A DNA stretch of 46,247 nucleotides, taken from NCBI GenBank assembly GCA_020845635.1, contig JADLFI010000032.1:1-46247 (forward strand). The letters are read 5' to 3'. Shown in pieces: positions 26,011-46,247 of the stretch (the stretch's first letter is position 1; each line of letters opens with the position of its first letter). Position numbers and translations under genes: made by a program. The notes under the pieces were generated by a model. The model made no database searches, was not told where the DNA came from, and worked only from the letters and a program-made list of their open reading frames with translations. The stretch comes from Bacteroidia bacterium (lineage in GTDB: Bacteria; Bacteroidota; Bacteroidia; UBA4408).

Positions 26011-26873
26011 TGGAATATTTAAAATTAGAAGCAGTCGTGAATGATTTTATAACATCTACAGGAAGTGATTTTGTAGATGAAGATACCTATTTTCAATGGG
26101 CATCAGACTGCTTAGATATAATAGGAGGGTGTGATGCACTCATACCACAAGTAAAAGTATTAAAATTATTTGAACGTAAGGCTGTAATGCCAAAGAATTG
26201 GGTAGCCACAGATATAATCTATGAATATATAGGAGACCCAAATCTTATTGAAGAATGCGCCAAAGAATTTACAACCGCTGTAATTGGAGAAGATGTGCCT
26301 GTAACACATTGTTGCAATAGAATAGAAGTAGATCCTTCTTGCGCCGAAGATTCCCCTTGGTTACGAAATGACAGAATGTCTTTGATGGCTAATGTGAATA
26401 AGAATTTTCGCAATATGTTTGTGCCTCTATCTTATAGAAGAAGGGCAAATTTTCCAAATTCCTTAGAACACAAATTCACAACACATAATGTTAAGAATTT
26501 CTACACATTTCTTGGGAAATATATAGTTGTTCAAAGTAAAGCTGAATATATAGTAGTATTCTACTTTGGGAAAAAAACAGATGAAAGGGGTTTTCCAATG
26601 ATACCTAATGTTCCCGAAGTTATAAATGCTATCGTGCTTTACATAGAAATGAAAATAGCTTATGTAGAATACAGAGCAGAAAAAGATAATAAGACACGAA
26701 ACTTTTTCAACGATGTACTAACATTATATAATGCAGCAGCAGGAAAAGCAAGAGCTGCATTAACACAAATTCCATTTGAATTAGCATCTTCTTTTGCTAA
26801 CATTCTACAAAATATAGTTCCTAATTACGAAGAAAGATATGCTCAGTTTACAAAGGGACGTTCAACCCATTAA
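26007..26873 (+). CDS. Ring/tail tubular protein (T7 gp11-like)
   Basis: 288 residues. The N-terminal helices (DFVDEDTYFQWASDCLDIIG) and the middle beta part ending IVVFYFGKKTDERGFPMIPNVPEVINAIVLYIEMK follow the pattern of crAss-like ring proteins and T7 gp11-type adaptors, where 'G(F/L)PMIP' precedes a helix. Its role would be to join the portal to the tail. Overlaps the muzzle gene by 35 bases. Confidence 0.75.
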   Translation: MMEYLKLEAVVNDFITSTGSDFVDEDTYFQWASDCLDIIGGCDALIPQVKVLKLFERKAVMPKNWVATDIIYEYIGDPNLIEECAKEFTTAVIGEDVPVTHCCNRIEVDPSCAEDSPWLRNDRMSLMANVNKNFRNMFVPLSYRRRANFPNSLEHKFTTHNVKNFYTFLGKYIVVQSKAEYIVVFYFGKKTDERGFPMIPNVPEVINAIVLYIEMKIAYVEYRAEKDNKTRNFFNDVLTLYNAAAGKARAALTQIPFELASSFANILQNIVPNYEERYAQFTKGRSTH

Positions 26874-29800
26874 TCAACCTGAACAAACTATTAGATTTGG
26901 TCTCAATGGTGTAAAGAATGAGTTTGATGCCATAGAAAACGAGCGTAGTACTACTCTTTGTGCTGATTTTCCAGAGGAAGTTGTTGGACAGTTAACCTTA
27001 AATAAGAACGAAGTATTGATTTTTACAACAAATTCTATATTCATTTTAGACTTAGATGATTGCACTTATACAGAAGTAATAGATTGTGATATACCAAATG
27101 CAAAATATGTAAGTGCTGTATATCATATCTTGGAGGATTGCAATCAGAGAGAGGTGTATTGGGTTGATGGAGTTCATGAATTAAGGAAAATAAATATAGA
27201 TAAGCCAGAAGATTGTGATTTTAAAGTTTTTAAATGTAATCATATCTTAGAAATAAAACCAAAAGTTTTAAATTACGGGGGGTTTTTAAGTACAGGAACT
27301 TATCAATTTGCTTACAGATACAAAGACGGAAATGTCGCAATTATTTCTGACCCAATTTACATTTACGATGAAAATACATCAGAATCTTGGAATTTAATAG
27401 ATGGAGCTATTGCTGGTACTACCACAACAAAATCTGTTGAAATAACTTTAAATGGAATAAATACAAATGAAGAGGAAGTTGAACTTATTGTTATTTCTAC
27501 TATTAATGGTGTTATTTCAGCATTTGTAATAGATACCGTACAGGCAATAAATCCAATTACATATATATATAATGGCTCTTTTAAATCAACAATTTCTTTG
27601 AATGAGCTATTAGTTCCAACAATCAGTTTTTCTTCTGCAACCCTAATCTGTGAATTTCAAAACTCTCTTTTAATCTCTGGCTTAAAACAGGTTAAAAACA
27701 TAGATTATCAAAAGTATGCAAATGAAATAACTGTCAATTGGGTAACACACAAAATTCCTGCAAGCCTTGCTTATAAAATTCCTGAATTTATGAACCTTAA
27801 AACCTTCATGGGTGATGAAGTTTATGCTTTTGGAATTGTTGGTTTCTTTTGTGATGGCACAACTACTCCAGTATTTCACATTCCGGGGAGAACAAAACTT
27901 GCAGGAGAAGAAATAATCATTTCTTCTGATAACCCAGATAATTTCTATTCTTGTGAAAAGGAGTATTGGGAAATTTATAACACTGCAAAAATAACAGAAC
28001 AACCTCATGAAAAATCTACAATTGAAGAAGATTGCGGACTTTATGATTTTAAGTTAAGGGTTTGGGAACGTGGTATTATGGGCTACAATGAACAGTGCAT
28101 TCTCTACCCAGATATTAAAAACTGTGAAGATGAGTTTATGTACCCATTAGGAAATGTACGACATCATAGATTTCCTGATAGAAGCCTTGTTCCACATTTT
28201 GAAAGCCAATCTCTTCCTGATGTTGAATGTATCATAATAGAAGACGGCAAGGGTGTAAGTAATAGTACTATGCCTTATAAAGGAGATAACGGCGAGGAAA
28301 TGTATATCTTTCCTTTAAGTATAGAAATAGGAAATATTCAACCTTTTGAAGGAATATACCATTGGGAAATAGTCTATGTAAAAAGAACAGACAATAATAA
28401 AACAGTAATAGCAAAGGGAAATACCCACAAAACTTTTTATACTCAATTAACTAATGGTCAAATTGCTTATCACCCACATTATAACATCAATAGTTCATTA
28501 GACTTTACTGTTAGTATAATTGATAATGGTTCTACTTCAGCCTATTCGGAAGTAAATAAATTGGTAACTTCTCCAGAAGATGCTTCTGTATATAAATTTC
28601 ATAGTCCTAATACAGCTTTTTTAAAGCCTTCTCTTGAAGCTACACATTTTGTAATAGAACAAGAATGGGACGGAAATGGAAGATGCTATGGATCAAAGGA
28701 TAAAAATACTGTAGGAGAAGATTGTTATGTAGGTACATTTAATTTTAACATGGCTGCATATAATAATATAAATGATTTGAGCCGCCCTGTTCAAGTAATT
28801 AAGCAAAGGAAAATAACAAAGGACACCTATGTAAATGCCCACACTACTAATTCTGCATTTGATAAACCCTTTATTAATTTGCACCAAGAAGGCGGTGCTG
28901 CTTTCAAACTTGAAAGTAATTTACCTTTTTTATCTCCTTGTAATACTCAATACAAAGATTCAAGTTTAGTTCCCTATGTAATAGATGATGAATGTACGCT
29001 AATACCTTGTGCAAGATCTTTGTATGGGAGCATGAAAAGAATACTGTGTGATCAATATGGAAATTTGCAAGGTTTAGAATATAAATCTCTTATTCAAGGA
29101 GAAAGAACATTAGATAGAAATGGAAAATATGAAATAAGAGAAGTCTTTGGCGATGCCTTTATAAATTATTGGAGTTACAGAAGAACTGCAATTTTACACT
29201 ATAACCAAACTATTTTTTCGGATGCTCCTGATGATAAAGACGAACTTCCTATTGCTTGTGGTGTTCATGGGTGGTACGAAAGTGATGTTAATGTTGACAT
29301 GAGACATGAGGGTATAATAGGTATAGGAGAAATCTATTATCCAAAATTAGGTAATGGCTTTTATAGGTTAGACACATTAGGAAAACAATTTACTATTGAC
29401 CACTCCTATTTAGGAAGATTTCACTTTAATAATGGGAATGACTCCTATATAAATTTAGGAATAGATAACTTTTATGGCTACAACAAAGATTATTCTTTAA
29501 ATAAAGAAATAAGAAGTTTCTTTGCTTATACAGATAAATATAAAACATGTGATTGTAATTCTGAATATTTAAATGATATAGCCGTGTCCGATGTTAAAAA
29601 TTGGAGTACTTTTAGATTCAACAATAGAATACAAGTACCTGCAACTTTTGGATTAGGTACTAATATGTTTGTTTTAAGCAATAGTTTATACTATCATACA
29701 GAAGACAATCTTTGGAAAATATTCTCTTCTCAAAGCAGATTAGAAACTGATAAAGACACTATCTACATAGGTAATGGTAATTTATTTGGTTCTACTCCGT

Positions 29801-30741
29801 TATCCCTATTTGCAACAAAAGAAGGTTCAGCTGGTTTACAGAGAAAACACGGAACACTATTAAATGAGATGGGATATTTTTTCTTTGATGATAAAGCAAA
29901 TAAACCATATAATTTCAGGGAAAATGTTTTGCCTATTACTGAGGGCTTATCTCTATTTTTTAGAGATTTGCCTAAAAATGCAGAATGGGTATTTGGACAT
30001 GATCCACATTTAAACAGAATTTTATTTACTGTAAAATATGAGGACATAAGTTGTTCTTTTTCTTTAAGTAGATTGAGAGATACAGGAAAATGGTTTATGT
30101 TCCATTCTTATTTACCTTCAATGTATTTAAACCATAGAAAAAACTTTTATAGCGTAAAAGAAAATTCAGTATGGCTTCATAATCAGGCAAATACATATCA
30201 AACCTTTTATAATACGTACTATCCCCATGAAATAGAAATTATTGAAGTTAGTAAACAAGGCAGTTCTATATTTAATAATGTGATTTACATGCAAGATGCC
30301 TTTACTTACAATACAGCTTTTAATTTAGAACACCCTATCAACGAAACATTCACACATTTGTATTTATATAATTCAAGACAATTTTCTGGATTATTGTCTT
30401 TAAAGCCTCATACAGACTCTACAATCGATTATTACTTGGAAGCAATACAAGACCTTACTTCAACTGCAAAAGTCAATAGAAAGGAGAATAAGTGGCTTTT
30501 AAATGAATTTGATGATATAGTAGAGGATTATACAATACCTTTTATTATTTATCCTTGTTTTTCACCTTTAAACTACGAAGTTAATGATCTTGCTGTTGAT
30601 CCTAATAGACCTTATTATGCAAGAGAAAGATTTAGAGATTTTTATTTAGGACAAAAATTCATAAATTTTAGACCTGAGAATCCAGAAATAAAATTAGTAA
30701 CTACAATTTTTAACACTTTAACAACACAATCATCGAGATAA
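26839..30741 (+). CDS. Large tail (muzzle-like) protein
   Basis: 1300 residues. The N-terminal third looks like beta-propeller or repeated sheet units: ENERSTTLC, then FTTNSIFILDLDD, then REVYWVDGVHELRKINID and GTYQFAYRYKDG. This pattern is shared by the large 'stabilization' or muzzle proteins of crAss-like phages, which close the short tail. The middle and C-terminal parts are beta-rich without enzymatic motifs (for example YPKLGNGFYRLDTLGKQ and SLYYHTEDNLWKIFSSQ). Position between ring proteins and cargo proteins fits. TAATG joins it to the next gene. Confidence 0.8.
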   Translation: MLSLQRDVQPINQPEQTIRFGLNGVKNEFDAIENERSTTLCADFPEEVVGQLTLNKNEVLIFTTNSIFILDLDDCTYTEVIDCDIPNAKYVSAVYHILEDCNQREVYWVDGVHELRKINIDKPEDCDFKVFKCNHILEIKPKVLNYGGFLSTGTYQFAYRYKDGNVAIISDPIYIYDENTSESWNLIDGAIAGTTTTKSVEITLNGINTNEEEVELIVISTINGVISAFVIDTVQAINPITYIYNGSFKSTISLNELLVPTISFSSATLICEFQNSLLISGLKQVKNIDYQKYANEITVNWVTHKIPASLAYKIPEFMNLKTFMGDEVYAFGIVGFFCDGTTTPVFHIPGRTKLAGEEIIISSDNPDNFYSCEKEYWEIYNTAKITEQPHEKSTIEEDCGLYDFKLRVWERGIMGYNEQCILYPDIKNCEDEFMYPLGNVRHHRFPDRSLVPHFESQSLPDVECIIIEDGKGVSNSTMPYKGDNGEEMYIFPLSIEIGNIQPFEGIYHWEIVYVKRTDNNKTVIAKGNTHKTFYTQLTNGQIAYHPHYNINSSLDFTVSIIDNGSTSAYSEVNKLVTSPEDASVYKFHSPNTAFLKPSLEATHFVIEQEWDGNGRCYGSKDKNTVGEDCYVGTFNFNMAAYNNINDLSRPVQVIKQRKITKDTYVNAHTTNSAFDKPFINLHQEGGAAFKLESNLPFLSPCNTQYKDSSLVPYVIDDECTLIPCARSLYGSMKRILCDQYGNLQGLEYKSLIQGERTLDRNGKYEIREVFGDAFINYWSYRRTAILHYNQTIFSDAPDDKDELPIACGVHGWYESDVNVDMRHEGIIGIGEIYYPKLGNGFYRLDTLGKQFTIDHSYLGRFHFNNGNDSYINLGIDNFYGYNKDYSLNKEIRSFFAYTDKYKTCDCNSEYLNDIAVSDVKNWSTFRFNNRIQVPATFGLGTNMFVLSNSLYYHTEDNLWKIFSSQSRLETDKDTIYIGNGNLFGSTPLSLFATKEGSAGLQRKHGTLLNEMGYFFFDDKANKPYNFRENVLPITEGLSLFFRDLPKNAEWVFGHDPHLNRILFTVKYEDISCSFSLSRLRDTGKWFMFHSYLPSMYLNHRKNFYSVKENSVWLHNQANTYQTFYNTYYPHEIEIIEVSKQGSSIFNNVIYMQDAFTYNTAFNLEHPINETFTHLYLYNSRQFSGLLSLKPHTDSTIDYYLEAIQDLTSTAKVNRKENKWLLNEFDDIVEDYTIPFIIYPCFSPLNYEVNDLAVDPNRPYYARERFRDFYLGQKFINFRPENPEIKLVTTIFNTLTTQSSR

Positions 30742-33700: not shown

Positions 33701-34220
33701 TAGAACTATTCCTACCAATTATGCTCCAATAATGAATATGAACACAGAACCTGAATATAAATCTGCAATTAATAGTTTATTACAAAGTCAAAAAATGGCT
33801 ACTGATTCTATTCTAAACAATTCTTATAATCCTTTATTGGGTATGGCTAATGCGACAAATGCTGCGGCAAATACTCAATCTTCCATTGCTCAATATATGG
33901 GGCAAGTAGCAAATCAAAGACAACAATTACAAAATCAAAAATTAACAGCTTTACAATCTTTATTAGCAGGAGAACAGGGAATAAATCAAAACATTGAGAA
34001 AGAAAGAGCAGCCCTTTCTAATTTGAAGAAAACATATCCGGGCGAGTTAGCAAAACACACAGCTCGTGATATTAGCAATTATGTTTTAGACAAAGATAAA
34101 AAACAAGCTCAAATGAATCAAGATAGGGCTATTTTAGAGATGATGATGAAGCTCTACAATAATCCTGCAATTACAGATTTATTAGATAAAGCTAAAAATA
34201 CAGTTTGGGGAAATAAATAA
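30741..34220 (+). CDS. Internal virion (cargo-like) protein with four tandem repeats
   Basis: 1159 residues. The N-terminus has a glycine-rich hydrophobic stretch (GGIIAATATNVIPGLIGG, about 19-36), suited to membrane insertion, followed by RKGGRIYEYPGGGYVYID. Residues about 307-655 hold four copies of a helical repeat (EVQNLEQQVYNNAFNQNGY ... KSKWISPFV). The C-terminal half includes a PENSYVFSARNKLSAKTA segment and long Gln/Asn-rich helices. The size and position after the muzzle gene match large cargo proteins ejected with DNA in crAss-like phages. No catalytic motif is seen. TAATG junctions on both sides. Confidence 0.7.
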   Translation: MKKTNKLLPAKSVEKKALGGIIAATATNVIPGLIGGIFNNIAKRRAELRAEKDLMEQQILNSQPEQFRKGGRIYEYPGGGYVYIDDPSFYGVDEKGNAITEGYNLGQAGDGTYDRGRTIPALNKDLSKGIPDNKVIPLTTGKELLGYDEKGKPVYVGYEYPSIKPIKPAITAATELVELDELVRENSNSKLSANDLKRYKTLKAKYPKESKRYEAAFSTLKDLNSETSSKNPTAKDILIGKATQTSVPKVSNPDAEAVEIGELYSLLDSYLTVGLNQKDLKRFKELKEMYPSDYEDSEKTIAQTKGLKAEVQNLEQQVYNNAFNQNGYYLDDALLEDYVVKYKKLYSQEPDVSEILKERQRQANYREVNEKSKWISPFVNLVPTHSTAPREKSKLKTEVQNLEQQVYNNAFNENGYYLDDALLEDYVVKYKKIYSQEPDIKEILKERQRQANYREANEKSKWISPFVNLTPIRSTTPKENSTLKQEVQNLEQQVYNNAFNQNGYYLDDELLEDYVVKYKKIYSQEPDIKEILKERQRQANYREANEKSKWISPFVTSDNKKIKGSTNSADSKSKLKTEVQNLEQRVYNNAFNQNGYYLDDMLLEEYVVKYKQLYSQEPDIKEILKERQRQANYKENNEKSKWISPFVPSPFPIGGYVNSPIQAEEFQGQKETIALPNDQLIETNAEAPHEQMPDQEITDVLPENSYVFSARNKLSAKTAMQLLLELGMDKKDVNKLKGKKEISPVDVSNLAKPTKNTANDYQTSELKERNRQAVLEKAKTFNELLKVLNPEEQPQMAGGGSLLNPNTYSPFAIPQIAMPTFNPNLNTTFTGKDYFTQRTPQISPFVNYQVPDVSLNYQNTPNSYNPFATAKMDLKTGIFPKPTTNYFGGSPYADSIAEKRANADLERYESSLLNDSTAMAERDLAWKRAQLDSASGFKGNSEKPFMKIPENRSNQNKMFSDKDLTLFAGNMAANLVSGLGTLSQQMYRTIPTNYAPIMNMNTEPEYKSAINSLLQSQKMATDSILNNSYNPLLGMANATNAAANTQSSIAQYMGQVANQRQQLQNQKLTALQSLLAGEQGINQNIEKERAALSNLKKTYPGELAKHTARDISNYVLDKDKKQAQMNQDRAILEMMMKLYNNPAITDLLDKAKNTVWGNK
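31659..32700 (+). repeat. Four tandem repeats of about 88 codons
   Basis: Copies start at 31659, 31923, 32187 and 32463, giving periods of 264, 264 and 276 bases. All encode EVQNLEQ(Q/R)VYNNAFN, then a YYLDD...E(D/E)YVVKYK segment, LKERQRQANY, and KSKWISPFV. The DNA is nearly as similar as the protein, which points to recent duplication. The 12-base surplus lies in the linker of the third copy. Confidence 0.95.
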
Positions 34221-36628
34221 TGTTACAAAGAGATAGTTTTTATTATATTCCAGATTTAATGCCTTGGTCTCCAACGAGTGTAGAAAGGAATCTGCCCTTA
34301 GACTCGATGTTGGAAATTGCTAAAATGGGACAAGCCCAAATAGATGCTCAGTTACAAGCTATTGGAAAATTAAAAGCTGGAGTTCATGGCATAGATGCCA
34401 TGTTAGATCAAGATACTTTTTATAAGACTCAGAAAATGGAAGAGATTGCTGGAAAAAGTAAAGAGTTTGCAAGTAAAAATCTTTTAGATAGAGGTGTTCA
34501 AACAGATTTACAGAACTATGTAGAAAGTATTGCTTATGACTCCAACTTAGAAAATATAGCAAATAGAACCAAATCTATAAGAGAAGCATATAAAACTTAT
34601 TATGACTTATTTGCAAAAGGAGAGACTAGTGAAGCTAATATTTATCCGATGTTAAAAAGTATAGAAGAGGCAAATGAAAAATTTAAAGCTACAAATACTT
34701 TCGATCCATCTATGAAAGTAGATTCTAGATTAAGACCTTATACAGATGTTGGTAAAGTCATATTGGAGGGAATTGATAAGGTAGATGTAAGCTCTATGCC
34801 TTTTAGTAATGGCAAAGACTTTCAAATTGTGGATTTAGGAAATGGGTATCAGCAAATTGTTACACTTGAAGGTAAATCAAAAGAAGCCTTAATGAAAGCT
34901 GCACAAACAGCTTTGGGAGAAAAAGGCATGACCCAATTATACTTAGATTATCAATATAAAAATTCACTTTCAGAAGACGGATTAAAAGATGATAAAGGAA
35001 ATCCAATAAGTTTTGAAAAATATGCAGGAGAAATTCTCCTTAATGCAAGTGAAGCCTTTCAAACAAAGGTTTTAAAAAGAGATAATCCAATGGAAAACTT
35101 ATATCAAAGAAGAGCCTTTGAACTGCAAAAATTAGCAAAACAATACGAATATGACAGAAACATTGCTCAAATGCGTATTAATGCAGATTTAGAAAAAGAA
35201 AAAAGAGACAAAGCTACAAAGGGAGCAAGCTCTGTATATTCTGCAATACCTGCCGTACCTACGACTACGGGACAAATGGTTGGAGATTTCGTGCGGTCTG
35301 AAAAATCTCTCGTTTCAACAAAATCCCAACTTGATAAGTTTGTGGGGGGCTATAACCTTAAAGTAGAAACTGATAAATTGATAGAGTTAAAAGAGAATTT
35401 TGACAATTCAAATTACGTTATACCAAAAGGAATGGACGAAGAGACTGTAAATAAAGTTTATGACGTTTTTAGAGACCAACAAGAGGGAAGTTATTTCTCT
35501 ACTTTAGTAGATAATTATATAAATGCAAAAGTAAAAAGAAAGGATTGGAAAGATATTTTTGAAGATGATGGCGAACTTATGGAGGCTTATGAAGCAGCGG
35601 AGAAAATTGCCGAGCAGAATAGACAGAATATTAATGAGCCTTGGCTTAATTTTGATATTATAGAAACTCCTGCAGGCAAAATGAAAGATAGGTATCTTAA
35701 TCTTGGAAAATTTGGAAAATATTTTAGCACAGTTGGTAATCCAAACGGAACAACAGCAGAAGAGGTTTTAACCAATGCGATAGAAAAGAATCAAGGCAAT
35801 AGTTGGTTTGAATCTTTAAAAACTAAGATAATTGCTGGAAGTGAAAAGATAAAGGGACGAGTTGGCGCAACTACTTTAAATTATGCACTAATACCTACTG
35901 ATAGTGAGAATGCTGCTGCTAAGGCTACTACACAATTAACAAAAGGAATGAACATCAGTGCTTTAAATATAGACGGATTTCCTGTTTCTACCTACAAGGA
36001 TAATAATGGAAAAGAGCATTCCATTACGGCATCTACTAAACCCACAAATGTTTCATTCATTTCTTCTGGGACTAAGCCTTATTTACAAGTTGAAGTGTCT
36101 GATGGTCAAAATACAGGCACTTTATATGCAGATGTTCCTACGTCCTACGAAGAGTCTTATAAAGAATTTATGCTTCAATCTATAAGCACAGAAGCAAATA
36201 GAACAAAGCCTAATGGGGCAGTTTTAACCGCTTCTGTAAATGCCTTGAATCATTTTGATAAATCCTTTAATATTAATTTGCTCAATGCAAAGGATTATTC
36301 TAAAATGCCTTCTGAAAGAGCAAGAGTAATTATAGGAGATGATGTTTCAACCCAAAATGTTATTCCTGCAAGTGCTGGATTTAAAGTGCAAGCAGGAGGA
36401 GGTAAAGTTATAAAATGTAATATATATGCAGTTCAAACCGCAGGAGGTTCTGAAAGATATTTCATAGGCTATAAAGCTGATCAATCAGAAGGAGGAACAG
36501 ATAGTACAGTTCTTGCCTTTTCCTTTGAGCCAAATTATTCACCTGCAGCAAAAGGTCAGGGAAATGTTTATTTTCCAGATATGCAATCGGCTGTTAATGC
36601 TGCAACAATTCTTAAAATTTCAAATTAA
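34220..36628 (+). CDS. Internal virion (cargo-like) protein
   Basis: 802 residues, largely helical. The start (MLQRDSFYYIPDLMPWSP, then LDSMLEIAKMGQAQIDAQLQ) matches the opening of a family of large internal proteins in Bacteroidota phages: an RD-FY motif, then a long helix with AQIDA. The centre has charged coiled coil; the C-terminal third is beta-rich with an Ala/Gly-rich segment (IPASAGFKVQAGGGKV). No enzymatic motif or membrane segment. Probably packaged under the portal and ejected. TAATG junctions at both ends. Confidence 0.65.
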   Translation: MLQRDSFYYIPDLMPWSPTSVERNLPLDSMLEIAKMGQAQIDAQLQAIGKLKAGVHGIDAMLDQDTFYKTQKMEEIAGKSKEFASKNLLDRGVQTDLQNYVESIAYDSNLENIANRTKSIREAYKTYYDLFAKGETSEANIYPMLKSIEEANEKFKATNTFDPSMKVDSRLRPYTDVGKVILEGIDKVDVSSMPFSNGKDFQIVDLGNGYQQIVTLEGKSKEALMKAAQTALGEKGMTQLYLDYQYKNSLSEDGLKDDKGNPISFEKYAGEILLNASEAFQTKVLKRDNPMENLYQRRAFELQKLAKQYEYDRNIAQMRINADLEKEKRDKATKGASSVYSAIPAVPTTTGQMVGDFVRSEKSLVSTKSQLDKFVGGYNLKVETDKLIELKENFDNSNYVIPKGMDEETVNKVYDVFRDQQEGSYFSTLVDNYINAKVKRKDWKDIFEDDGELMEAYEAAEKIAEQNRQNINEPWLNFDIIETPAGKMKDRYLNLGKFGKYFSTVGNPNGTTAEEVLTNAIEKNQGNSWFESLKTKIIAGSEKIKGRVGATTLNYALIPTDSENAAAKATTQLTKGMNISALNIDGFPVSTYKDNNGKEHSITASTKPTNVSFISSGTKPYLQVEVSDGQNTGTLYADVPTSYEESYKEFMLQSISTEANRTKPNGAVLTASVNALNHFDKSFNINLLNAKDYSKMPSERARVIIGDDVSTQNVIPASAGFKVQAGGGKVIKCNIYAVQTAGGSERYFIGYKADQSEGGTDSTVLAFSFEPNYSPAAKGQGNVYFPDMQSAVNAATILKISN

Positions 36629-39600
36629 TGGGTACAATAGATAAATTTTTAAGTCAACACACTGCTCAACCTGTATTAAACAAGTCAGCAAAGTATGAGC
36701 CTTTACCAAGTTCAGAGTTGAATTTAACCTCGCATGTAGATTTCTTAACACCAGAAGGCTGGTTTGGTCCGGGCTATAATACCTATGTTAAAAGGTTTAA
36801 TCCAACAGGTGATCCTGAACAAGACCAAAGAATTTTAGATGATCTTAGATACCAAAATCAGGGGTATTTGATGAGAACATTAAATACTGTACCTAGGCTT
36901 GTAGGCTCATTAGTAGGTTATGTTGGTGAAAGTATAGGGGTTGCTGGTGGTTTTGCTGCTGATGTTTTAGTAAATGCTGCTGATTTAGCCAAAGATGTAA
37001 AAACAGGAAGAGAGATTGAATTAAAGGGGCTTAACAACACCTTTGATAATTTTATGGTTTCGTTAGGTGCTGACTTTGCAGAAGGCTCAAAAGCATTATT
37101 TCCTAATTATGCTTCGGCTAATTATCAAGACCAAGGATTTTTAGATAGAATTACCTCTACACAATTTATATTAGGGGATTTTGTAGATGGACTTGCTTTT
37201 CTTGGGAGTTCTTTTGTTGGTGGTACGGGTGTGCTAAAAGGAATTGGCGCAGTAGGAAAACTTACAAAAGGATTAAAAGTAGGGCAGGCTGTGCAGAAAG
37301 AAATGGCTTTAATTAGAGCGGCAGAAAGAGCAGGAAAAAAATTAACTGCCTTTCAAAAGGTCTTAAAAAATACTCCAAATGCTATGGTTACAGCTGTCAA
37401 CACTATTGCAGAATCAGGAATTGAAGCTAATGGAGTAAAGAAAGAATTAATGAGATCTTACGAGAATGGTGAGTGGGGGTCTAATTTAACACCAAAAGAA
37501 GCAGAAATTATAGCTACTGAAAAAGCAAGTGAAACTTTTAAATTTAATGTAATGTTATTAGGCTTAACTAATCACTTAGAAACTGATATGTTATTTGGAA
37601 AATCTACTTTAACAAAGAGGAATGTCCAAGGTGCCTTAGCAGGAAAAAGAATAGTTGAAAGTTATATAAAACCAAAAGCAGCTTTAAATGCCATAAACGA
37701 ATCTTTTCAAGAAGGTATTCAAACTTCAATAGAAAGGTATGAAACTAATCTTGTGACAGGAAGAGATGAAGTAGTGCCAAGAAGTAGGTATCATAAACAA
37801 GGTTGGTTAGGTAGTACTGCAAATGTTTTAGAGGAGTTTTTAGATGGTATGGGAAATAATGAACAACAAGCTAGTATGTTCATAGGTAGTTTAATAGGTG
37901 CAGGTGGTTCTTATGTAAGTTCTAAATATAGAGAAAAATCTCTAAATGCGGATTTTAAAAGGTTAATGCAAAACACACAAGTAATAGGAGATATTTATAA
38001 CAGGGACTATGAAAGTTTATTTGAGGAAGAAGAATATGAAGAACCTGTTATAGATCCTAATACAAAACAGCAAGTAATGAATGGAACAACTCCTGTAACT
38101 CAGAAAAAGAAGAGGTTTAAAAGAGATGCAAATGGAGAATTGGTTTATGATCAAGAAGTAATAGAAAGAAAATTAGAACATTTAAGACGTGATAGAAACC
38201 TTTTTAAAGAAGCTGAATTAGCTAGATTAAAAGGGGAAGATGAAATTGGTGATTTAATTAGAAACACGCACTTGGCAAGATTGGCAAATACTTGGTTTGG
38301 ATTAGATTATGGCGATTTAATTTTAAAAACTAAATTAGAGAAAATTGCTGCTGAGGAAGCTGCTGCGGCAGGATCTTCTAAGGCAGATAATATCATGTTG
38401 GAACTGTCGAAAAATTTAGATCTTGTGGATAAATTAAAGGTAGCTTATGATAATATACAAATGGAAGTTTTAAATCGTGCCAAAACGAGAGAAGAAGAAG
38501 AAAATTTTACAAAGGATAAAAGTGCGGCTTTGCTTTATGAGGAAGCAAAGAGAATGTTTTTAAGAGACCTATCTACAAATAATGCTTTGGGAACATCTCA
38601 AACTACTCCAATACCTGCTGCTAAAAATAATCTTTACAACAGAATACTTTCTTTTTTTAATGTTTCTACAACTCCAGCAACAGCACCAGCAACGACAACT
38701 ACAACAGCAACAACAACTACAACTCCAGCAAATACCACAACCACAACAGCACCAGCAACTCCTGCAACAACCACAGCTCCTGTAGTAACTTTGCAAGATA
38801 GTGTAGATATGGCTATAAAAGACAGTGAGGAATTTTCCAAAAGGTTGTTAGAAAATGATGGTGCTGTGTATGAAGAATGGAATAATTTAAGATTAGAGAG
38901 GAAAAAAATAAAAGATCCTAAAACTTCGGCACAGGCTAAATTTAATATTCAAAAAGATTGGCAATCTTACAGAGATTTGATGTTAGAAGAAGGTTACTTT
39001 AATGGCAATAATGATTCCTTACTGCAAAGAATTAGAAGACATACTGCTGACACCTTAAAAAGAAATGGTAGATTAGAAAAGGCATTGGAGGCTAAAATTA
39101 AAAATGCACCTACAACTTTTGAATTATACGAGACAGCTAAACAATTAGGTGCTTTCAGAGACCTTTCTCAAAAAAATATTCAGTTGGCTGAGGATATAAA
39201 AGCTATGGCAGAGCGGGGAAAGAATACTGAAAAGACCAAAATTCAAGGAGATATGGCTGCTGCGCAATTAAAAAAGACAGCGCAGGAAAAAATAATACAG
39301 GATTTAGACAGGGCTATTAATTCTAATCCATCTGATAGACAAGAAAAACAAATTATAGATGTTGATCAAAAATTGCAAGATTATGTAAATGATACAATTA
39401 ATCTCTATACTGCTGCCGCTATTGCCAATATTTTTGTGTATGAAAATAAAGATACTGCTAATAACTTTTTAGAGCAGGGGGTACTAATACAATTAATAAC
39501 AGGGGAAACTCTTGTTAAAGTACTTATTAACGGAGAACTTTTTGAGGAAAGATCTATTCCTGTAGATATAGACACCTTAATTGATGTAGGTGTAATAAAC

Positions 39601-42600
39601 ACTATATTTTCTTATCATAAAGGTCAAGTTCAAGATGAAATAGATAGACTCGATAATGCAATACAAGATTTGCAGCAAGAAGAGTTACGAGTAGATAGAG
39701 AACTTGACGTTTTGGATAATCTGGATTTTACCCAAACAAGCGAATCTTTTCGTATGGCTAATTTACCAGAAGATGAATTACCTGCTGCTGTAAAGGATTA
39801 CCTAATTAAACAAGATATTGAAAGAGGAGAAGAAATACTCAAGACAGAGACAACTAATTTTCAAAATGGTATATACTCAACAACCAATTTAAAGAAGATT
39901 ATAGACTACTTAAAACTTCTCTTGAATTACCCTTCTTTGGGAGCTAATGAACCTGCTGTTCAGCAGTTATTAGCTGATTTAAATATCCTGTTTAATCAAA
40001 TGGATACAGCTTTTAAAAAGCAAATTGCAGAAGGTAAGAAATTCACAGATGAGCATGAGGGTTCTATAACAGAGTATGTAAAGGATTTTAGCACTGACCC
40101 AAACAAGCCTGTATTTATTGAAATAATAGATGAAATAAAAAGATTACATACAGTTAAAAATGACCCTGCAAGTGATCCAAAAGATATAGCAGCTGCGGAA
40201 TTAAAGTTAGCTACGAAAAGGAATGAATTACAAAATCTTTTGAGTAATTTAAATATACCTGAGATTCTCTGGGAGTTAAAGGAATTTTTACTTACAAACG
40301 GTGCGGAAATAGATGAAGCATTGATAGAAATCTTGACAAGGAAATCTACTTCCAAAAACACACAGCCACAAGCAGAGGTAATCCGACAAAATAGAACTTT
40401 GGTAGAATATTCTACAAGTTATAGATTATTTCAAGGCGTAATAAAAGGTATTCCATATTTAAATGCCTATTTAATCTCTGATAGAATTGACAGCTCAGAG
40501 TTTGCAGCGGTGATTAATAATATGAAAGACACTGATATTGATTTTAAAACACCGCCTTCTGCAGCAGATTTCGCTACTTTTAAGGCTAATTTATTAAGGT
40601 TATTTGAGGATTACAAAAAGGCAAGAAGAATAGAAAAATCTTTAAGGTTTTTAAATAGCGGTGTTGATTTAACTGCTTTTTATCAAAATGCTCCTATGCC
40701 CGCAGTGTTTCCTTCTCCTCAACAACAAGTTGTAATGGAGGAAGCCGTTGCTTTTTTAGAAACTAAGGAAACCAGTAAGATATTTGTTATTGATGGTGCG
40801 GCAGGAACAGGTAAAACTTTCCTGTTAAAATTATTTTTGGGTGCTAGAAAGGTATTTACATGGTCTCCTTACACACATGCGAACGCTAATTTACAAGCTA
40901 CTTTAAATATAGAACCATCAACAGTTACTATACAATCCTTATTGAATCTTTTAAATCCTAAAAATATTCCTGCTAATGACATAACGGCAAAATTTAATTT
41001 TGTAGTTGTTGAAATAAATAAGATAAAAGCTGGTACTGATACGAATTTAATCGCAATGGTTGAAAAATTAGAGAAAGGCACGCCATTAATAATTGATGAA
41101 ATTTATGCTGCTGATGTAGATGTTCAGATTATTCTTGCCGTATTAGCAGAAACTTTTAAAGCTAAGGTAATTGTATTAGGAGACCCAAATCAAATTTCTA
41201 ATGCTCATGGACTTGCTAACTATGCTTGGCAAAAAATAGCTGTTGCTGCCCAACATGGAACTCCTTTGTCTGTAAGGTTTAGAAGTTTTGTGCTTCCAAT
41301 TGCTGCTGTTCAAGAAGCCTTTTATGGAAAAACCTCTAAAATAGACGAACTCAATACTGTTTATAACGATGGCTTAGGAGTAAATGGTTTAGAGGATATG
41401 GGTAAATTTGTTGAAGATATAAAAGAAAAATTAGCAAATGGTGTAAATCCTAATGATTGTAAAGTAATTGTTAGTGATGACTTAGTAAAAGTTTATAATA
41501 ATCTTTTAACTAGTCAAGGGATAACTGTGGAGGTTCTTTCAGTAGAAAAAGCACAAGGTAGGGAATTTCCCTATGTTTGGGTAGACATTACTAAAATGAA
41601 CGTCAATGGCATTGTGGCAGAGACTGCACATAATAAACTTGTTTATACCGCTGTATCAAGGGGAAAATTATACATAGGTTATAATAATGCTGATGATAGA
41701 CCCGCAGACCAAAGGACTAAAATAAGAAGTTCTTTTGATGCCTCATTAACAGAGGATATAGGATTTAAACAAATGTTATTTAATGCAAATGAAAGAACTT
41801 ATTTAGAATTGTTGCAAAGAAGAAATGCTCCTTCAACAAGACCCATGCCAGCACCAATTGTTGCACCAACAACAACCACAAATACTCCGCCCCCTGTAGT
41901 ACCTTTGCCTGTTGCTCCTGTTGCCCCAGCAAGTCCACAACGTACAGCAATTGTAAATTCTGCTCTAAATAAAGGAAAGATTGTTCTCAATTTCCTTAAA
42001 AAATTGAAAACAGTAATAGCTAATAAAATTAACAATCAAACTCCTCCTCCTACTACAAATAACACTACTACTAATCCTCCTCCTAATAATCAAACTACTC
42101 CGGTTCCTCCTACTACGAATACACCAATTCCTCCTACTACGAACACTCCCGTTCCTCCTACTACATCTAATCAATCTGAAATAGAAGCTAAAAAAGCTGA
42201 TATAGAGAAAAGAAATAAATATACAAGAGAAAGTTTAAAAACTATTTCTGACGGCACTGGACTAGCTAAAAAAGGGACAGAAATTTTAGATACAAAATTA
42301 TTAGAAAATAATTTAAATATTGGTGACAAAATAGTTTTTTTTGATGAAAAAGAAAGAACAGGGGTATGGAATGGAAGTCATATAGTAGAAGATAAAACAA
42401 GTAATCCTTGGGGGACATTAGGGGTTTTAGCTAATCCTAAAAATTGGATTTTAAATAAATCTAAATATGATGCAGAATTAGCTGCATTAGAAGGAAATAA
42501 ATCTACAACCAATGATGAATACAAACTAGATTACTTAATTAATAAAACACCCATTAAAGCTGGAGTAGAAGAACTATTTGAGTCTAATCCTGAATTAGCT

Positions 42601-43461
42601 AATTCTGTATATGAAGCTTTAGGGTTTAATAATATAATTAGACCTAATGATAAAATAGTTTGGGGACATCCTGCTATTGGCAAGACTACAATGTTAGAAT
42701 CTAATCCTAATGCTTTTATAGATTGGGATAATGAATTTAATAGAAAGAGAGATAATTGGATAGCATCTAAAAGCAATGCAAAAATTGGTACTCCTGAATT
42801 TAAAAAGGCTCGTAATGAATACATGATTAATTATAATAATCATAAAGATTATGTTGCTTTTGTTAAAGAGGAGTGGAATAAAACCAAAGAAAAAGCTAAT
42901 AAAGAAAATAAAACTTTAATAGCCTCTCCTCACATGTTATTGAATTTATTTCCTAATGATTTCGATAGGGTAATAACTATGAGTGATAAAACATTCATGG
43001 ATAGAGCTATAAAAAGAAGTGGGGGTGATGAAGTTAATTCTAAATTATGGAAAGAAGGAATTAATAAAACTTTACAATCAATAGATAAGTCTAAAATTAT
43101 AGAAACTGATAAATTTATAAATGATTTATTCATAACCCCACAACAAAAACAACAAGCTATTTTTATGTTTTCGGAGTTTTTAGATTTATATTTGCAAGAC
43201 TTTGAACAAGTTGAAAGAATATTAAAAGAAGAAAAAATAATAGATAAAGATTGTACTGACAGTGATAAATTAAAAGCTGAAAAAGGATTACAAACTAATT
43301 TTATTAAAGGAGGTAAATGGAGAGTAATTAAAGACCTTAAAGGTTATCCTACGCATAAAGAAGGTGGAGTAGATTTAACTATTAGTAAAGATGGTGTAAG
43401 TATTAAAAATGGTAACACACAATTTATAGCAAAACACGGTTTAGTAATTCCTAAAAATTAA
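36628..43461 (+). CDS. Giant cargo protein with SF1 helicase and P-loop domains
   Basis: 2277 residues. Residues about 85-230 hold small-residue-rich amphipathic stretches (NTVPRLVGSLVGYVGESIGV; GGTGVLKGIGAVGKL) like injected internal proteins. Three Thr/Pro linkers (about 678-720, 1735-1770, 1804-1850) separate modules. A helicase of the RecD2/Dda type lies at about 1350-1690: GAAGTGKT near 1389, IIDEIY near 1486, GDPNQIS near 1518, KAQGREF near 1642 and VYTAVSRGKLYIG near 1672. A kinase-like P-loop, GHPAIGKT, lies at 2013-2020, followed by DWDNEF. The C-terminus (GGKWRVIKD ... GLVIPKN) is a small module. Probably delivered with DNA and acting on it at entry. Confidence 0.8.
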   Translation: MGTIDKFLSQHTAQPVLNKSAKYEPLPSSELNLTSHVDFLTPEGWFGPGYNTYVKRFNPTGDPEQDQRILDDLRYQNQGYLMRTLNTVPRLVGSLVGYVGESIGVAGGFAADVLVNAADLAKDVKTGREIELKGLNNTFDNFMVSLGADFAEGSKALFPNYASANYQDQGFLDRITSTQFILGDFVDGLAFLGSSFVGGTGVLKGIGAVGKLTKGLKVGQAVQKEMALIRAAERAGKKLTAFQKVLKNTPNAMVTAVNTIAESGIEANGVKKELMRSYENGEWGSNLTPKEAEIIATEKASETFKFNVMLLGLTNHLETDMLFGKSTLTKRNVQGALAGKRIVESYIKPKAALNAINESFQEGIQTSIERYETNLVTGRDEVVPRSRYHKQGWLGSTANVLEEFLDGMGNNEQQASMFIGSLIGAGGSYVSSKYREKSLNADFKRLMQNTQVIGDIYNRDYESLFEEEEYEEPVIDPNTKQQVMNGTTPVTQKKKRFKRDANGELVYDQEVIERKLEHLRRDRNLFKEAELARLKGEDEIGDLIRNTHLARLANTWFGLDYGDLILKTKLEKIAAEEAAAAGSSKADNIMLELSKNLDLVDKLKVAYDNIQMEVLNRAKTREEEENFTKDKSAALLYEEAKRMFLRDLSTNNALGTSQTTPIPAAKNNLYNRILSFFNVSTTPATAPATTTTTATTTTTPANTTTTTAPATPATTTAPVVTLQDSVDMAIKDSEEFSKRLLENDGAVYEEWNNLRLERKKIKDPKTSAQAKFNIQKDWQSYRDLMLEEGYFNGNNDSLLQRIRRHTADTLKRNGRLEKALEAKIKNAPTTFELYETAKQLGAFRDLSQKNIQLAEDIKAMAERGKNTEKTKIQGDMAAAQLKKTAQEKIIQDLDRAINSNPSDRQEKQIIDVDQKLQDYVNDTINLYTAAAIANIFVYENKDTANNFLEQGVLIQLITGETLVKVLINGELFEERSIPVDIDTLIDVGVINTIFSYHKGQVQDEIDRLDNAIQDLQQEELRVDRELDVLDNLDFTQTSESFRMANLPEDELPAAVKDYLIKQDIERGEEILKTETTNFQNGIYSTTNLKKIIDYLKLLLNYPSLGANEPAVQQLLADLNILFNQMDTAFKKQIAEGKKFTDEHEGSITEYVKDFSTDPNKPVFIEIIDEIKRLHTVKNDPASDPKDIAAAELKLATKRNELQNLLSNLNIPEILWELKEFLLTNGAEIDEALIEILTRKSTSKNTQPQAEVIRQNRTLVEYSTSYRLFQGVIKGIPYLNAYLISDRIDSSEFAAVINNMKDTDIDFKTPPSAADFATFKANLLRLFEDYKKARRIEKSLRFLNSGVDLTAFYQNAPMPAVFPSPQQQVVMEEAVAFLETKETSKIFVIDGAAGTGKTFLLKLFLGARKVFTWSPYTHANANLQATLNIEPSTVTIQSLLNLLNPKNIPANDITAKFNFVVVEINKIKAGTDTNLIAMVEKLEKGTPLIIDEIYAADVDVQIILAVLAETFKAKVIVLGDPNQISNAHGLANYAWQKIAVAAQHGTPLSVRFRSFVLPIAAVQEAFYGKTSKIDELNTVYNDGLGVNGLEDMGKFVEDIKEKLANGVNPNDCKVIVSDDLVKVYNNLLTSQGITVEVLSVEKAQGREFPYVWVDITKMNVNGIVAETAHNKLVYTAVSRGKLYIGYNNADDRPADQRTKIRSSFDASLTEDIGFKQMLFNANERTYLELLQRRNAPSTRPMPAPIVAPTTTTNTPPPVVPLPVAPVAPASPQRTAIVNSALNKGKIVLNFLKKLKTVIANKINNQTPPPTTNNTTTNPPPNNQTTPVPPTTNTPIPPTTNTPVPPTTSNQSEIEAKKADIEKRNKYTRESLKTISDGTGLAKKGTEILDTKLLENNLNIGDKIVFFDEKERTGVWNGSHIVEDKTSNPWGTLGVLANPKNWILNKSKYDAELAALEGNKSTTNDEYKLDYLINKTPIKAGVEELFESNPELANSVYEALGFNNIIRPNDKIVWGHPAIGKTTMLESNPNAFIDWDNEFNRKRDNWIASKSNAKIGTPEFKKARNEYMINYNNHKDYVAFVKEEWNKTKEKANKENKTLIASPHMLLNLFPNDFDRVITMSDKTFMDRAIKRSGGDEVNSKLWKEGINKTLQSIDKSKIIETDKFINDLFITPQQKQQAIFMFSEFLDLYLQDFEQVERILKEEKIIDKDCTDSDKLKAEKGLQTNFIKGGKWRVIKDLKGYPTHKEGGVDLTISKDGVSIKNGNTQFIAKHGLVIPKN

Positions 43462-43465
43462 TATT

Positions 43466-44677
43466 ATGTATAAAAGTATAAAAGTAGAAGCAGAACATAA
43501 TGAATTAATACTTGAAAATTCTCATGGAGATAAAGTAATAATTCCCGCAGATAAAAGGGATTGGGTTAAACAAAAATTATCAGATGGTTGTCATGCCTGT
43601 ATTGATAGTTTAGTAGAAACTTTACCTATTGCAAACCAATATGCAGGAGATGGAAGTTGGTTTCCAAGTTGGATGAATCCTCATAATTGGGGAGTAACTG
43701 ATTATACAGACAAAGGAGATTTTAACACAGCTTATAGTAGTGCAAGAAAAGCAGGAGAAAAAGTATTTTTGTATAATAATAAAAGGTATAATACTGATTA
43801 TAAAGGAACACCTCAACAACAATTAAAAGAAACAGGTTTAACTAATAAGCAAATTACAGGAAATAAAAGACTAAAAAAGGTGTATAAAAATACAACACCT
43901 TATACATCTATTTTACCACCATTAATTCAAGGATTAAAAGGGTATGCTGGATTTGAAGATAAAAATAGAGATATTGATGTCGAAAATCCTTTTCCTATAG
44001 CGTATTATTTAGAAAATAATCAAAAAGTATTTAGAGATTTGCCAGAAGAAGAACAAAAAAGATATAAAGAATTATCAAAACCTTATTTCAAAAGGGCAGA
44101 TGATGCTTGGGCTTTATATACAGGCAATTCTCAAAGATTTAAAACATTTGAAATATCTAATCATAAACCCTCTAATTCAAAAAATAAAGATGACTATTAT
44201 TATAGTTTAAATAAATCTTACCCTGAATTGTTAGAATTTATAGAAAAAGAAGGCATAAATCTAAAAATTGGAGAAAGTAAGCAAGTAGAAGAACCTACAG
44301 GATTAGTATTAAGAAATTTTAAAATAGGTAGGGGTCAAGATGAAAAAGGTGATTATATTAGTTATTATGATATTTGGAATCTAAATCCTTCTTTCGAGTT
44401 TCCCATACCAGAACAAGGTAAGCCTTTTGAAATATATGATAGAATATATACTAAAGATTATGGAGATGGAAAACAAAAAAGAATGTATTATACTGATAAA
44501 GAACTTTTTGATTTAGATGTGAATAAAAAGAATTTTGATACTTTAGCTTTACAAAAAGAGCTTGTAAACAGAGGTTATAAATTGCCTAAGTCAACTAAAG
44601 AAGATGGTTCTCTTGATGGTATATGGGGTGATGAAACTAAAAGTGCTTTGTTACAGTATCAAAAATCTAAAAAATAA
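43466..44677 (+). CDS. Virion protein with C-terminal peptidoglycan-binding domain
   Basis: 403 residues. The N-terminal module (ELILENSHGDKVIIPADKR) is a short beta unit that I know from the ends of virion proteins in Bacteroidota phages. Next come YAGDGSWFPSWMNPHNWG and a recognisable SSARKAGEKVFLYNNKRYNTDYKG motif. The last 45 residues (LQKELVNRGYKLP ... DGIWGDETKSALLQYQ) are a PG_binding_1-type domain. No clear hydrolase active site is seen in between. It may anchor the injection machinery to peptidoglycan or be an ejected wall-acting protein. It follows the helicase gene after four bases. Confidence 0.7.
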   Translation: MYKSIKVEAEHNELILENSHGDKVIIPADKRDWVKQKLSDGCHACIDSLVETLPIANQYAGDGSWFPSWMNPHNWGVTDYTDKGDFNTAYSSARKAGEKVFLYNNKRYNTDYKGTPQQQLKETGLTNKQITGNKRLKKVYKNTTPYTSILPPLIQGLKGYAGFEDKNRDIDVENPFPIAYYLENNQKVFRDLPEEEQKRYKELSKPYFKRADDAWALYTGNSQRFKTFEISNHKPSNSKNKDDYYYSLNKSYPELLEFIEKEGINLKIGESKQVEEPTGLVLRNFKIGRGQDEKGDYISYYDIWNLNPSFEFPIPEQGKPFEIYDRIYTKDYGDGKQKRMYYTDKELFDLDVNKKNFDTLALQKELVNRGYKLPKSTKEDGSLDGIWGDETKSALLQYQKSKK

Positions 44678-44750: not shown

Positions 44751-44824
44751 CTTTAAGTATAGCTCTTGCTGTTTTATACTTACAATCACAAAATCAACAA
44801 AATAATAAAAAACAATGTTCATAA
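44747..44824 (+). CDS. Micro-ORF, 25 residues, hydrophobic N-terminus
   Basis: ATG at 44747 overlaps the previous micro-ORF stop (ATGA). It reads MTLSIALAVLYLQSQ followed by a Gln/Asn/Lys tail ending QCS. The first 12 residues are hydrophobic, so a small membrane peptide is possible. It overlaps the start of the homing endonuclease gene by 10 bases. Existence is uncertain. Confidence 0.3.
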   Translation: MTLSIALAVLYLQSQNQQNNKKQCS

Positions 44825-45492
44825 AAGATATACAAAGAGGGCAATACACAAATGTTTGTGGAATATATAAGTTATATTTTGACAATGATGATAGATTTTA
44901 TATAGGTTCTACAAATGATTTACAAGAAAGATTACAAGCACACACAAGAGCTATAAATAAACAAAAACATTTTAATATATATTTTCAAAGATTATGTTTA
45001 AAATTAGGGATAGAAAATTTAAAGTATGAAATACTTGCTAAATGTCCACAAGAGTATCTTTTAAAGATGGAACAATGGTTTATAGATAAATTAAAACCTG
45101 AATTGAATTTAGCAGAAACTGTTGGGAGACCTCCTATAAATAGAAAAAGAGGATATAAAATGTCAGAGGAAGCTAAACAAAATATAAGCAAAGCAAGAAC
45201 TATTCAAAAAATAGATAGAAGTAATTATGTTCATTCAGAAGAAACTTTAAATAAAATAAGTCAATCTTTAAAAGGTAGAGTTATTACTGAAGAATGGAAA
45301 CAAAAAATGAAAGAAGCTAAAGCTAAAGGAGGTAAATATTCCAAATTAACTGTTGAACAAGTTAAAGAAATTAAATCTTTAGTTAGAACTAAAACAGATG
45401 AAGAAATTTCACAACTGTTTAATTGTTCAAGAGCTACTATAAATCAAATCAAAAACAATAAAATCTGGAAAGAAGTATGGGAAAATGTATAA
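44815..45492 (+). CDS. GIY-YIG homing endonuclease, free-standing
   Basis: 225 residues. The catalytic domain shows GIY at 16-18, YIG at 29-31, an arginine in LQERLQAHT (Arg39) and the catalytic glutamate in LKMEQWFIDKL (Glu86). Two NUMOD3-like DNA-binding repeats follow (MSEEAKQNISKART; SEETLNKISQSLKG), then a C-terminal helix-turn-helix (LTVEQVKEIKSL ... CSRATINQIKNNKIW). This matches Seg-type endonucleases that cut phage genomes lacking the element and spread by repair. There is no intron sign at its borders, so it is an intergenic selfish gene. Its stop lies inside the start of the next gene. Confidence 0.9.
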   Translation: MFIKDIQRGQYTNVCGIYKLYFDNDDRFYIGSTNDLQERLQAHTRAINKQKHFNIYFQRLCLKLGIENLKYEILAKCPQEYLLKMEQWFIDKLKPELNLAETVGRPPINRKRGYKMSEEAKQNISKARTIQKIDRSNYVHSEETLNKISQSLKGRVITEEWKQKMKEAKAKGGKYSKLTVEQVKEIKSLVRTKTDEEISQLFNCSRATINQIKNNKIWKEVWENV

Positions 45493-46247
45493 TAACATAT
45501 AAAGGTCAAAAGTATTCAGAAGAACAATTCAAAAAATACTTTATTAATAATAAACAAGAATTTACTACATTTATTGCTAAAAATAAAGATGTAATGGATT
45601 CTTTTAAAAGAAAAATGGAAGGGATTAACTTTGTGTTTAGTCAATCACCTGAACTTGCATCTATTGGTAGTAAAGCTCAATATTTACAATATTTATCTAC
45701 TATTTTTAAAAACAGTAAAGTAAAAGATATTGTTTATCGTGGAAAAACAGAAAATCAAACTAACAAAAAAAGTAAAGAATTAGGTATATTTTTTACAGAC
45801 GATAAAAATGCTGCTAATATTTATGCTATTAAATATAAAGGTGATGAATTTGATGATTCAATAATACAAGGGGTTGTAAATAAATTTGGATTAAATCCTA
45901 CCATTGAACAAATAAAATCTGAAATAGCTTTCTTTGAAAAAATGGGAGCTACTAAAGAACAAATTGAAAAAGATGCTAAAGAATTTCAAAAGTACATACT
46001 GAATAATAAAGGTATAGCTGAACAAGCAATTATTAATATAAAAAATCCTAAAAACTTAACTGTAAAAGATTGGTTTGATAATTATGACAATAGTAGTAGT
46101 TTAAAGGAAAATTCTGATGGTCTTTTGTTGAAAGGAGGAAAGCAATCAGATAATAGGATATATGATGCTGGTGAAAATCAAATTGTAGTATTTGAACCAG
46201 AACAAATTCATATACTAGGTTCTAAACAAGATATAGAAGGATTTAAA
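45477..46247 (+). CDS. ADP-ribosyltransferase-like protein, N-terminal part (runs off the window)
   Basis: The ATG at 45477 lies 16 bases before the end of the endonuclease gene, and 257 codons remain open to the window edge. After an N-terminal unit (TYKGQKYSEEQFKKYF) come VYRG at 86-89, GIFFTDDKNAANIYA at 103-117, IINIKNPKNL at 185-194, and VVFEPEQIHILGSKQDIEGF near 237-256. This is the pattern of ART domains in phage polyvalent proteins: the first arginine, an FFT/STS-like strand and the closing 'VVFEPEQI' strand. The target is unknown; host RNA polymerase or another host protein are guesses. The C-terminal part is missing. Confidence 0.7.
   Translation, partial: MGKCIITYKGQKYSEEQFKKYFINNKQEFTTFIAKNKDVMDSFKRKMEGINFVFSQSPELASIGSKAQYLQYLSTIFKNSKVKDIVYRGKTENQTNKKSKELGIFFTDDKNAANIYAIKYKGDEFDDSIIQGVVNKFGLNPTIEQIKSEIAFFEKMGATKEQIEKDAKEFQKYILNNKGIAEQAIINIKNPKNLTVKDWFDNYDNSSSLKENSDGLLLKGGKQSDNRIYDAGENQIVVFEPEQIHILGSKQDIEGFK

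Follow-up and report, generated by a model that had tools for sequence, protein, structure and literature searches.

A giant cargo-region protein of a divergent crAss-like phage carries an SF1 helicase domain beside the virion RNA polymerase gene

What would a helicase and a second P-loop domain do in a giant protein encoded among the cargo genes of a crAss-like phage? The reading frame that raises this question lies in the window analysed here, which spans the whole 46,247-nt contig C32 from an assembly of 3.05 Mb. The contig carries crAss-like genes for the terminase (TerL, 3e-91), the portal protein (2e-131), and the capsid protein (Crass_capsid, 1e-84). The nearest relatives of the capsid protein are found in the Flavobacterium Fpv phages, at only 35% identity, and the phage is therefore divergent. 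The features of the cargo region are listed below (residue numbers refer to the giant ORF, P0001).

26839-30741, plus strand: muzzle (tail stabilisation) protein, 5' of the cargo genes (phrog_15100 8e-43, weak crAss_MUZ_C)
34220-36628, plus strand: 802-aa gene of the cargo region, in the place of phi14:2 g068 / crAss001 gp46 (by position only)
36628-43461, plus strand: P0001, giant putative cargo ORF of the phi14:2 g067 / crAss001 gp47 class, 2277 aa (ATG-to-stop frame)
36628-38307, plus strand: N-terminal carrier domain, aa 1-560, with the homology core at aa 70-487 (homology to phi14:2 g067)
38665-38781, plus strand: Thr/Pro/Ala-rich linker 1, aa 680-718 (sequence)
38848-40690, plus strand: charged middle region, aa 741-1355 (sequence comparison)
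40705-41697, plus strand: SF1 helicase domain, aa 1360-1690, with the full set of motifs I-VI (Pfam AAA_30 3.4e-10, motif positions, alignment with other cargo helicases)
41773-42177, plus strand: Pro/Thr-rich linker 2, aa 1716-1850 (sequence)
42166-42510, plus strand: exchangeable cassette, aa 1847-1961, flanked by the joints SNQSEIEAKKADIE and SKYDAELAALEGN (49% identity to the giant protein of contig C11; swapped in L149)
42565-42627, plus strand: joint VEELFESNPELANSVYEALGF, aa 1980-2000 (recurs in giant ORFs from the cargo regions of other crAss-like phages)
42631-43122, plus strand: P-loop NTPase domain, possibly nucleotide-kinase-like, aa 2002-2165, Walker A GHPAIGKT at aa 2013 (homology; model and fold search)
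43279-43458, plus strand: C-terminal tail module GYPTHKEGGVDL...HGLVIPKN, aa 2218-2277 (shared with ORFs in the cargo regions of L057 and L072)
45477-46247, plus strand: 5' part of the vRNAP gene with an ART-like N-terminus, open at the contig end (in-frame continuation on G000:C11)

The single frame of 2277 residues described in the first-pass annotation is intact from ATG to stop. It is arranged, starting from the N-terminus, as carrier domain, linker 1, middle region, SF1 helicase, linker 2, and exchangeable C-terminal modules, and the Thr/Pro linkers that had been noticed between the domains are present at aa 680-718 and about 1716-1850. No relative of the middle region (aa 741-1355) was found beyond a sister phage, and phmmer of P0001 against the PDB gave no match.

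The remainder of the phage genome is very probably found on contig C11 of the same assembly (59,278 nt), as indicated by an exact 127-nt overlap with the end of C32, the continuity of the reading frame, and the phage genes of C11 (a g065-like gene, PolA, ribonucleotide reductase, Thy1, a DnaB-like helicase, and primase); the two contigs, joined at one end pair, would form a single genome of ~105 kb. The overlap falls within the part of the vRNAP gene that encodes its ART-like N-terminus, and the break between the contigs may have been caused by sister phages sharing this ART-like module. Single-protein scans of IMG/VR, with P0001 and with the capsid protein, gave no close relative, an alignment scan with the P-loop pair gave none either, and none was present in 100 related host genomes.

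The virion RNA polymerase, which the first-pass annotation had missed in the window and proposed to seek in the rest of the genome, starts within the window at 45477, and its catalytic part lies on C11. There the frame runs on for 4,488 aa (whole protein ~4.7 thousand aa) and contains TGADFDVD, the DxDxD catalytic motif of crAss vRNAPs. An ART-PolyVal-like match in this gene (1.4e-5) is under the curated score. The succession of P0001, vRNAP, and a 1429-aa g065-like protein corresponds to phi14:2 g067-g066-g065, so that the comparison with crAss-like cargo genes proposed earlier comes out as conserved synteny; in blastp searches within a small set the three proteins match g067, g066, and g065 with E-values of 2e-11, 1e-10, and 2e-12, respectively. 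P0001 is separated from the vRNAP gene by two small ORFs. The one directly 3' of the cargo gene (43466-44677, 403 aa) has a C-terminal PG_binding_1 match below the cut-off (4e-4), and the other (44815-45492, 225 aa) has by eye the look of a GIY-YIG-type endonuclease (CGIYKL...YIGST).

The assignment of P0001 as a cargo protein had been made from its position, and it now rests on more than that, since P0001 is related to phi14:2 g067 and g067 to crAss001 gp47, both of which are detected in virions. Residues 70-487 match g067 at 4e-5 in tblastn (50,697 phage records searched), with 2e-11 in blastp (small 5-protein set), and the g067 N-terminus matches gp47 at 1e-8. By hydropathy, the glycine-rich hydrophobic stretches of the carrier domain near aa 103-121 and 180-203 have similarly placed counterparts in g067. 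The record of g067 (YP_008242291) lists a virion protein identified by MS/MS, g066 and g065 are likewise annotated from virion MS/MS, and gp47 was detected in crAss001 virions (PMC10172136). The same carrier domain forms the N-terminus of the vRNAP chain in the IMG/VR records L095 (1e-15) and L025 (1e-14), and therefore appears to mark proteins travelling with the polymerase. In these two records the g067-type carrier is fused straight to vRNAP, which is a gene fusion inside the cargo block. Judging by its relatives, P0001 is probably a cargo protein of the g067/gp47 class that is packaged and ejected, and its delivery into the host can be regarded as well supported. Pfam scans of g067 and gp47 revealed no helicase, and a helicase is thus not generally required for ejection.

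The helicase domain is recognized by Pfam as AAA_30 (3.4e-10), Viral_helicase1 (1.6e-7), and AAA_19 (5e-7), all above the curated cut-offs. Its motifs are I GAAGTGKT (aa 1390), Ia-like SPYTHANANL (1413), II LIIDEIY (1487), III GDPNQ (1518), IV RFRS (1550), V VEKAQGREF (1639), and VI YTAVSRGK (1673). The earlier description as a Dda/RecD2-like helicase stands with respect to the complete set of motifs and the AAA_30 match, but not with respect to the SH3-like 2B-sized insert, which is missing: the spacing between motifs IV and V is ~85 aa, as opposed to ~200 or more in L030, L031, and L036. The domain is therefore described here as an SF1 helicase and not as Dda or RecD2. In the helicase tree, the stand-alone crAss SF1 enzymes form their own clade, while the branch of the window helicase is very long (4.1), which prevents its placement among the cargo helicases of other phages; the tree neither supports nor contradicts a common origin of the cargo-borne enzymes. 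Contig C11 has no stand-alone AAA_30 helicase, and with DnaB-like, primase-like, and PolA genes of its own in the phage, the helicase of P0001 is not obviously replicative. Its use as the replicative helicase is less likely given the DnaB-like helicase and the replication block on C11. According to the function of its family, the domain would be an ATP-driven DNA translocase.

The second P-loop domain does not match any Pfam family above cut-off. Its residues 2002-2151 share 59% identity (150 aa) with the N-terminal portion of a cr1_1 protein (2007 aa) that adjoins vRNAP and also has an exonuclease match and an ART-PolyVal domain; the same match is seen in cr55_1. Weaker relatives are found in L054 and cr124_1 (29% identity for cr124_1), in both cases in the gene after vRNAP, and the Walker A sequence GHPAIGKT is conserved or near-conserved in three phages. 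Of the two structure predictions suggested by the first-pass annotation, that of the P-loop domain (pLDDT 76) was good enough for a fold search and that of the helicase (pLDDT 47.6, built with 4 sequences) was not. The nearest structures to the P-loop model in Foldseek are dephospho-CoA, CMP, and gluconate kinases, all matched weakly (best E-value 3.5e-3, TM about 0.43, none under 1e-3). Together with the Walker A motif, this is compatible with the kinase-like character noticed earlier, and "kinase-like" seems a fair label for the modeled fold.

A sister phage was retrieved by a scan of GTDB genomes (QCWD01000113.1, L149, and QCWD01000056.1, L150). Its contigs are binned in the MAG Nitrososphaeraceae archaeon WS9, apparently by a binning error. 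Through the carrier, middle region, and helicase, the sister and window proteins are about 98-99% identical, and all helicase motifs are kept, with one change, N1419D, located in the Ia-like stretch. The helicase-coding parts differ by 5 nonsynonymous and 1 synonymous changes, too few for dN/dS. On the 3' side of linker 2 the sister has two other cassettes, the first of which is related to g067 aa 1389-1523 (7e-5), and after the VEELFE joint a different domain is found, devoid of Walker A and followed at the contig end by an ART-like start (by eye). Thus, the stable portion of the protein includes the helicase, and the P-loop domain lies in a variable tip and is not a fixed component of the machine. 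The cassette joints SNQSEIEAKKADIE, KYDAELAALEGNKSTTND, and VEELFExNxELANxVYEALGF are short and nearly identical in DNA, and the cassette of the window recurs with its joints near the vRNAP N-terminus as a paralogue of 49% identity. The swap is what intragenic recombination at the repeated joints would give.

Fifty vRNAP-bearing records were searched for AAA_30 and for SF2 Helicase_C. AAA_30 is matched in 13 of the 50, and in three of these 13 the match lies inside the vRNAP ORF, 5' of the DFDxD motif (L030, 3401 aa; L031, 3775 aa; L036, 4150 aa). Two further cases were found outside this search: in L134 the helicase follows the polymerase core within the vRNAP chain, and in cr118_1 gp14 (YP_010110531, 4946 aa) the DFDID motif at aa 3207 is accompanied by a full SF1 helicase at the C-terminus. 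New here is an SF1B helicase fused into the vRNAP chain in five other crAss-like phages; the records of L030, L031, and L134 contain a crass capsid gene. The Helicase_C control matches 33 of the same 50 records, always in ORFs of 173-537 aa and never in a giant one (0/33), which argues against a merely random occurrence of helicases in the giant ORFs of crAss-like phages (3/13 versus 0/33 records, Fisher p = 0.019, although the records are not independent). In the literature covered by our search, no cargo-borne or vRNAP-fused helicases are described in crAss-like phages; PDDEXK domains have been reported in the transcription-block giants (PMC7886860).

Some details of these records deserve mention. 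The gene of cr118_1 gp14 (L145 16381-31221, NC_055872.1) is labelled "exonuclease V", a misleading label for a vRNAP-helicase fusion. A SLOG/YpsA-like (DprA-like) stretch lies between the helicase and the vRNAP core in L036 (cpYpsA 4e-7) and, by eye, in L030. The vRNAP gene of cr124_1 (L155 22-7902, NC_055899.1) contains 41 in-frame TAG codons, so that TAG seems to be a sense codon there, and the cargo-helicase profile does not support the annotation of gp01 in this genome as a "DNA helicase".

We consider it somewhat probable (about 0.55) that P0001 is an ejected carrier that brings a DNA translocase together with vRNAP to act on the incoming genome, and that bears an exchangeable effector tip. 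The virion would hold the protein and release it together with the DNA or before it; in crassviruses the cargo is presumed to exit the capsid before the DNA (PMC10172136). The conserved N-terminal carrier would get it packed and through the tail, and the SF1 helicase domain would be the translocase, delivered with the vRNAP encoded just downstream. Its action would fall in the very first phase of infection, when movement along the incoming genome would most likely help internalisation and free or unwind the template for transcription by vRNAP. Exchangeable effector cassettes would form the C-terminal modules, represented in the window by the kinase-like P-loop domain. Both halves of P0001 are found fused to vRNAP elsewhere, the carrier in L025 and L095, and the helicase class in L030, L031, L036, L134, and cr118_1. 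For the vRNAP fusions of crAss-like and N4-related phages, a coupling of DNA translocation to early transcription has been proposed (PMC10770324), and a translocase delivered with the polymerase would directly fit this proposal. A broader version, to which we give less than even odds, is that in some of the crAss-like phages the ejected SF1B helicase, recruited to different chains (to the carrier here and to the polymerase elsewhere), may be the motor of the vRNAP machine that draws in or opens the genome, with the carrier tips exchanged as effector cassettes at the conserved joints.

The module swapping itself admits another explanation, as counter-defence effectors would also be exchanged between near-identical phages. 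P0001 could then be a polyvalent protein whose injected helicase and P-loop domains remove defence proteins of the host from the incoming DNA or disable them there, a function proposed for P1 DarB, and contribute neither to entry nor to transcription. Helicase-containing multi-domain proteins that are injected, DarB among them, have been described (Iyer 2017, PMC5512222), and ART-PolyVal-like domains are present in the neighbouring vRNAP chain, in cr1_1, and in L036. However, the helicase lies in the segment conserved in the sister (98% identity), before the swap point, a DarB-like methylase partner is absent, and the fusion of an SF1B helicase to the RNA polymerase in five relatives speaks for a DNA-handling job. 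We regard this explanation as rather unlikely for the protein as a whole and as most plausible for the C-terminal tip.

The long Thr/Pro linkers flanking the part formed by the middle region and the helicase would also suit a frame cut by a protease, with the N-terminal part alone being packaged and the helicase and P-loop domains left to serve replication or packaging in the cell at a late stage. This is improbable, as crAss-like cargo genes are expressed late and their products ejected at the next infection (PMC10136315), five other phages have the helicase within an unbroken vRNAP chain, and the window phage has a separate replication block. Finally, fast module turnover, the strong divergence of the helicase (branch length of 4.1), and the weak kinase fold match would be expected if the two domains were inactive passengers of recombination with a structural role at most. 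The retention of all helicase catalytic motifs in both the window and the sister, the Walker A motif of the second P-loop, conserved or nearly so in three phages, and the recurrent, class-specific fusion of the helicase in other phages make this explanation very improbable.

As a putative carrier with a translocase and an exchangeable tip, P0001 can be compared with several known systems. Like P0001, phi14:2 g067 and crAss001 gp47 are giant multi-domain chains with a homologous N-terminal domain, and g067 (L011 15806-21199) also shares its position just before vRNAP. Unlike P0001, g067 ends in a region (aa 1591-1645) with a weak resemblance to GNAT, below cut-off, which is possibly another exchangeable module on the carrier, and gp47 has PDDEXK-like and HEAFH motifs by eye. 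In cr118_1 gp14, L030, L031, L036, and L134, an SF1B/AAA_30 helicase is likewise carried on a giant crAss cargo chain, but there it sits in the vRNAP chain and has a 2B-sized insert, whereas P0001 is a separate protein of the g067 class and has none. T4 Dda, RecD2, and the stand-alone crAss SF1 enzymes (p-crAssphage gp14, cr3_1, cr8_1) share motifs I-VI and AAA_30 with P0001; the stand-alone crAss enzymes are single proteins of ~440-490 aa from the replication block, while the helicase of P0001 is shorter than these and joined to a carrier domain. In conjugative relaxase-helicases such as TraI, the helicase enters the recipient with the DNA, as proposed for P0001, but TraI-type proteins have a relaxase, and Pfam detected no such domain in P0001.

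P1 DarB and the polyvalent proteins (PMC5512222) resemble P0001 in being large, multi-domain, helicase-bearing, and delivered with the genome, the last being presumed for P0001. Several domains (carrier, helicase, and P-loop) are indeed combined in one chain of the structural block, as in such proteins, but no signature polyvalent domain (LPD, ART-PolyVal, MuF, etc.) was detected in P0001 by Pfam. DarB combines an SF2 SWI2/SNF2 helicase with an adenine methylase, and a homology of P0001 to DarB was rejected in view of the SF1 type of its helicase and the absence of a methylase in the Pfam scan. The SF1 example among polyvalent proteins is UvrD-like and comes from actinomycete conjugative elements (PMC5512222). 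Virion-delivered helicases as such are already known, P1 DarB being one.

Among the viruses of the human gut, the crAss-like phages rank first in abundance. They have ~100 kb of DNA and giant proteins to deliver, and we know of no described entry motor for them. A cargo helicase that is fused to vRNAP in other members of the group is a concrete and testable candidate for such a motor, and the exchangeable tips make these cargo proteins a place to seek injected counter-defence functions.
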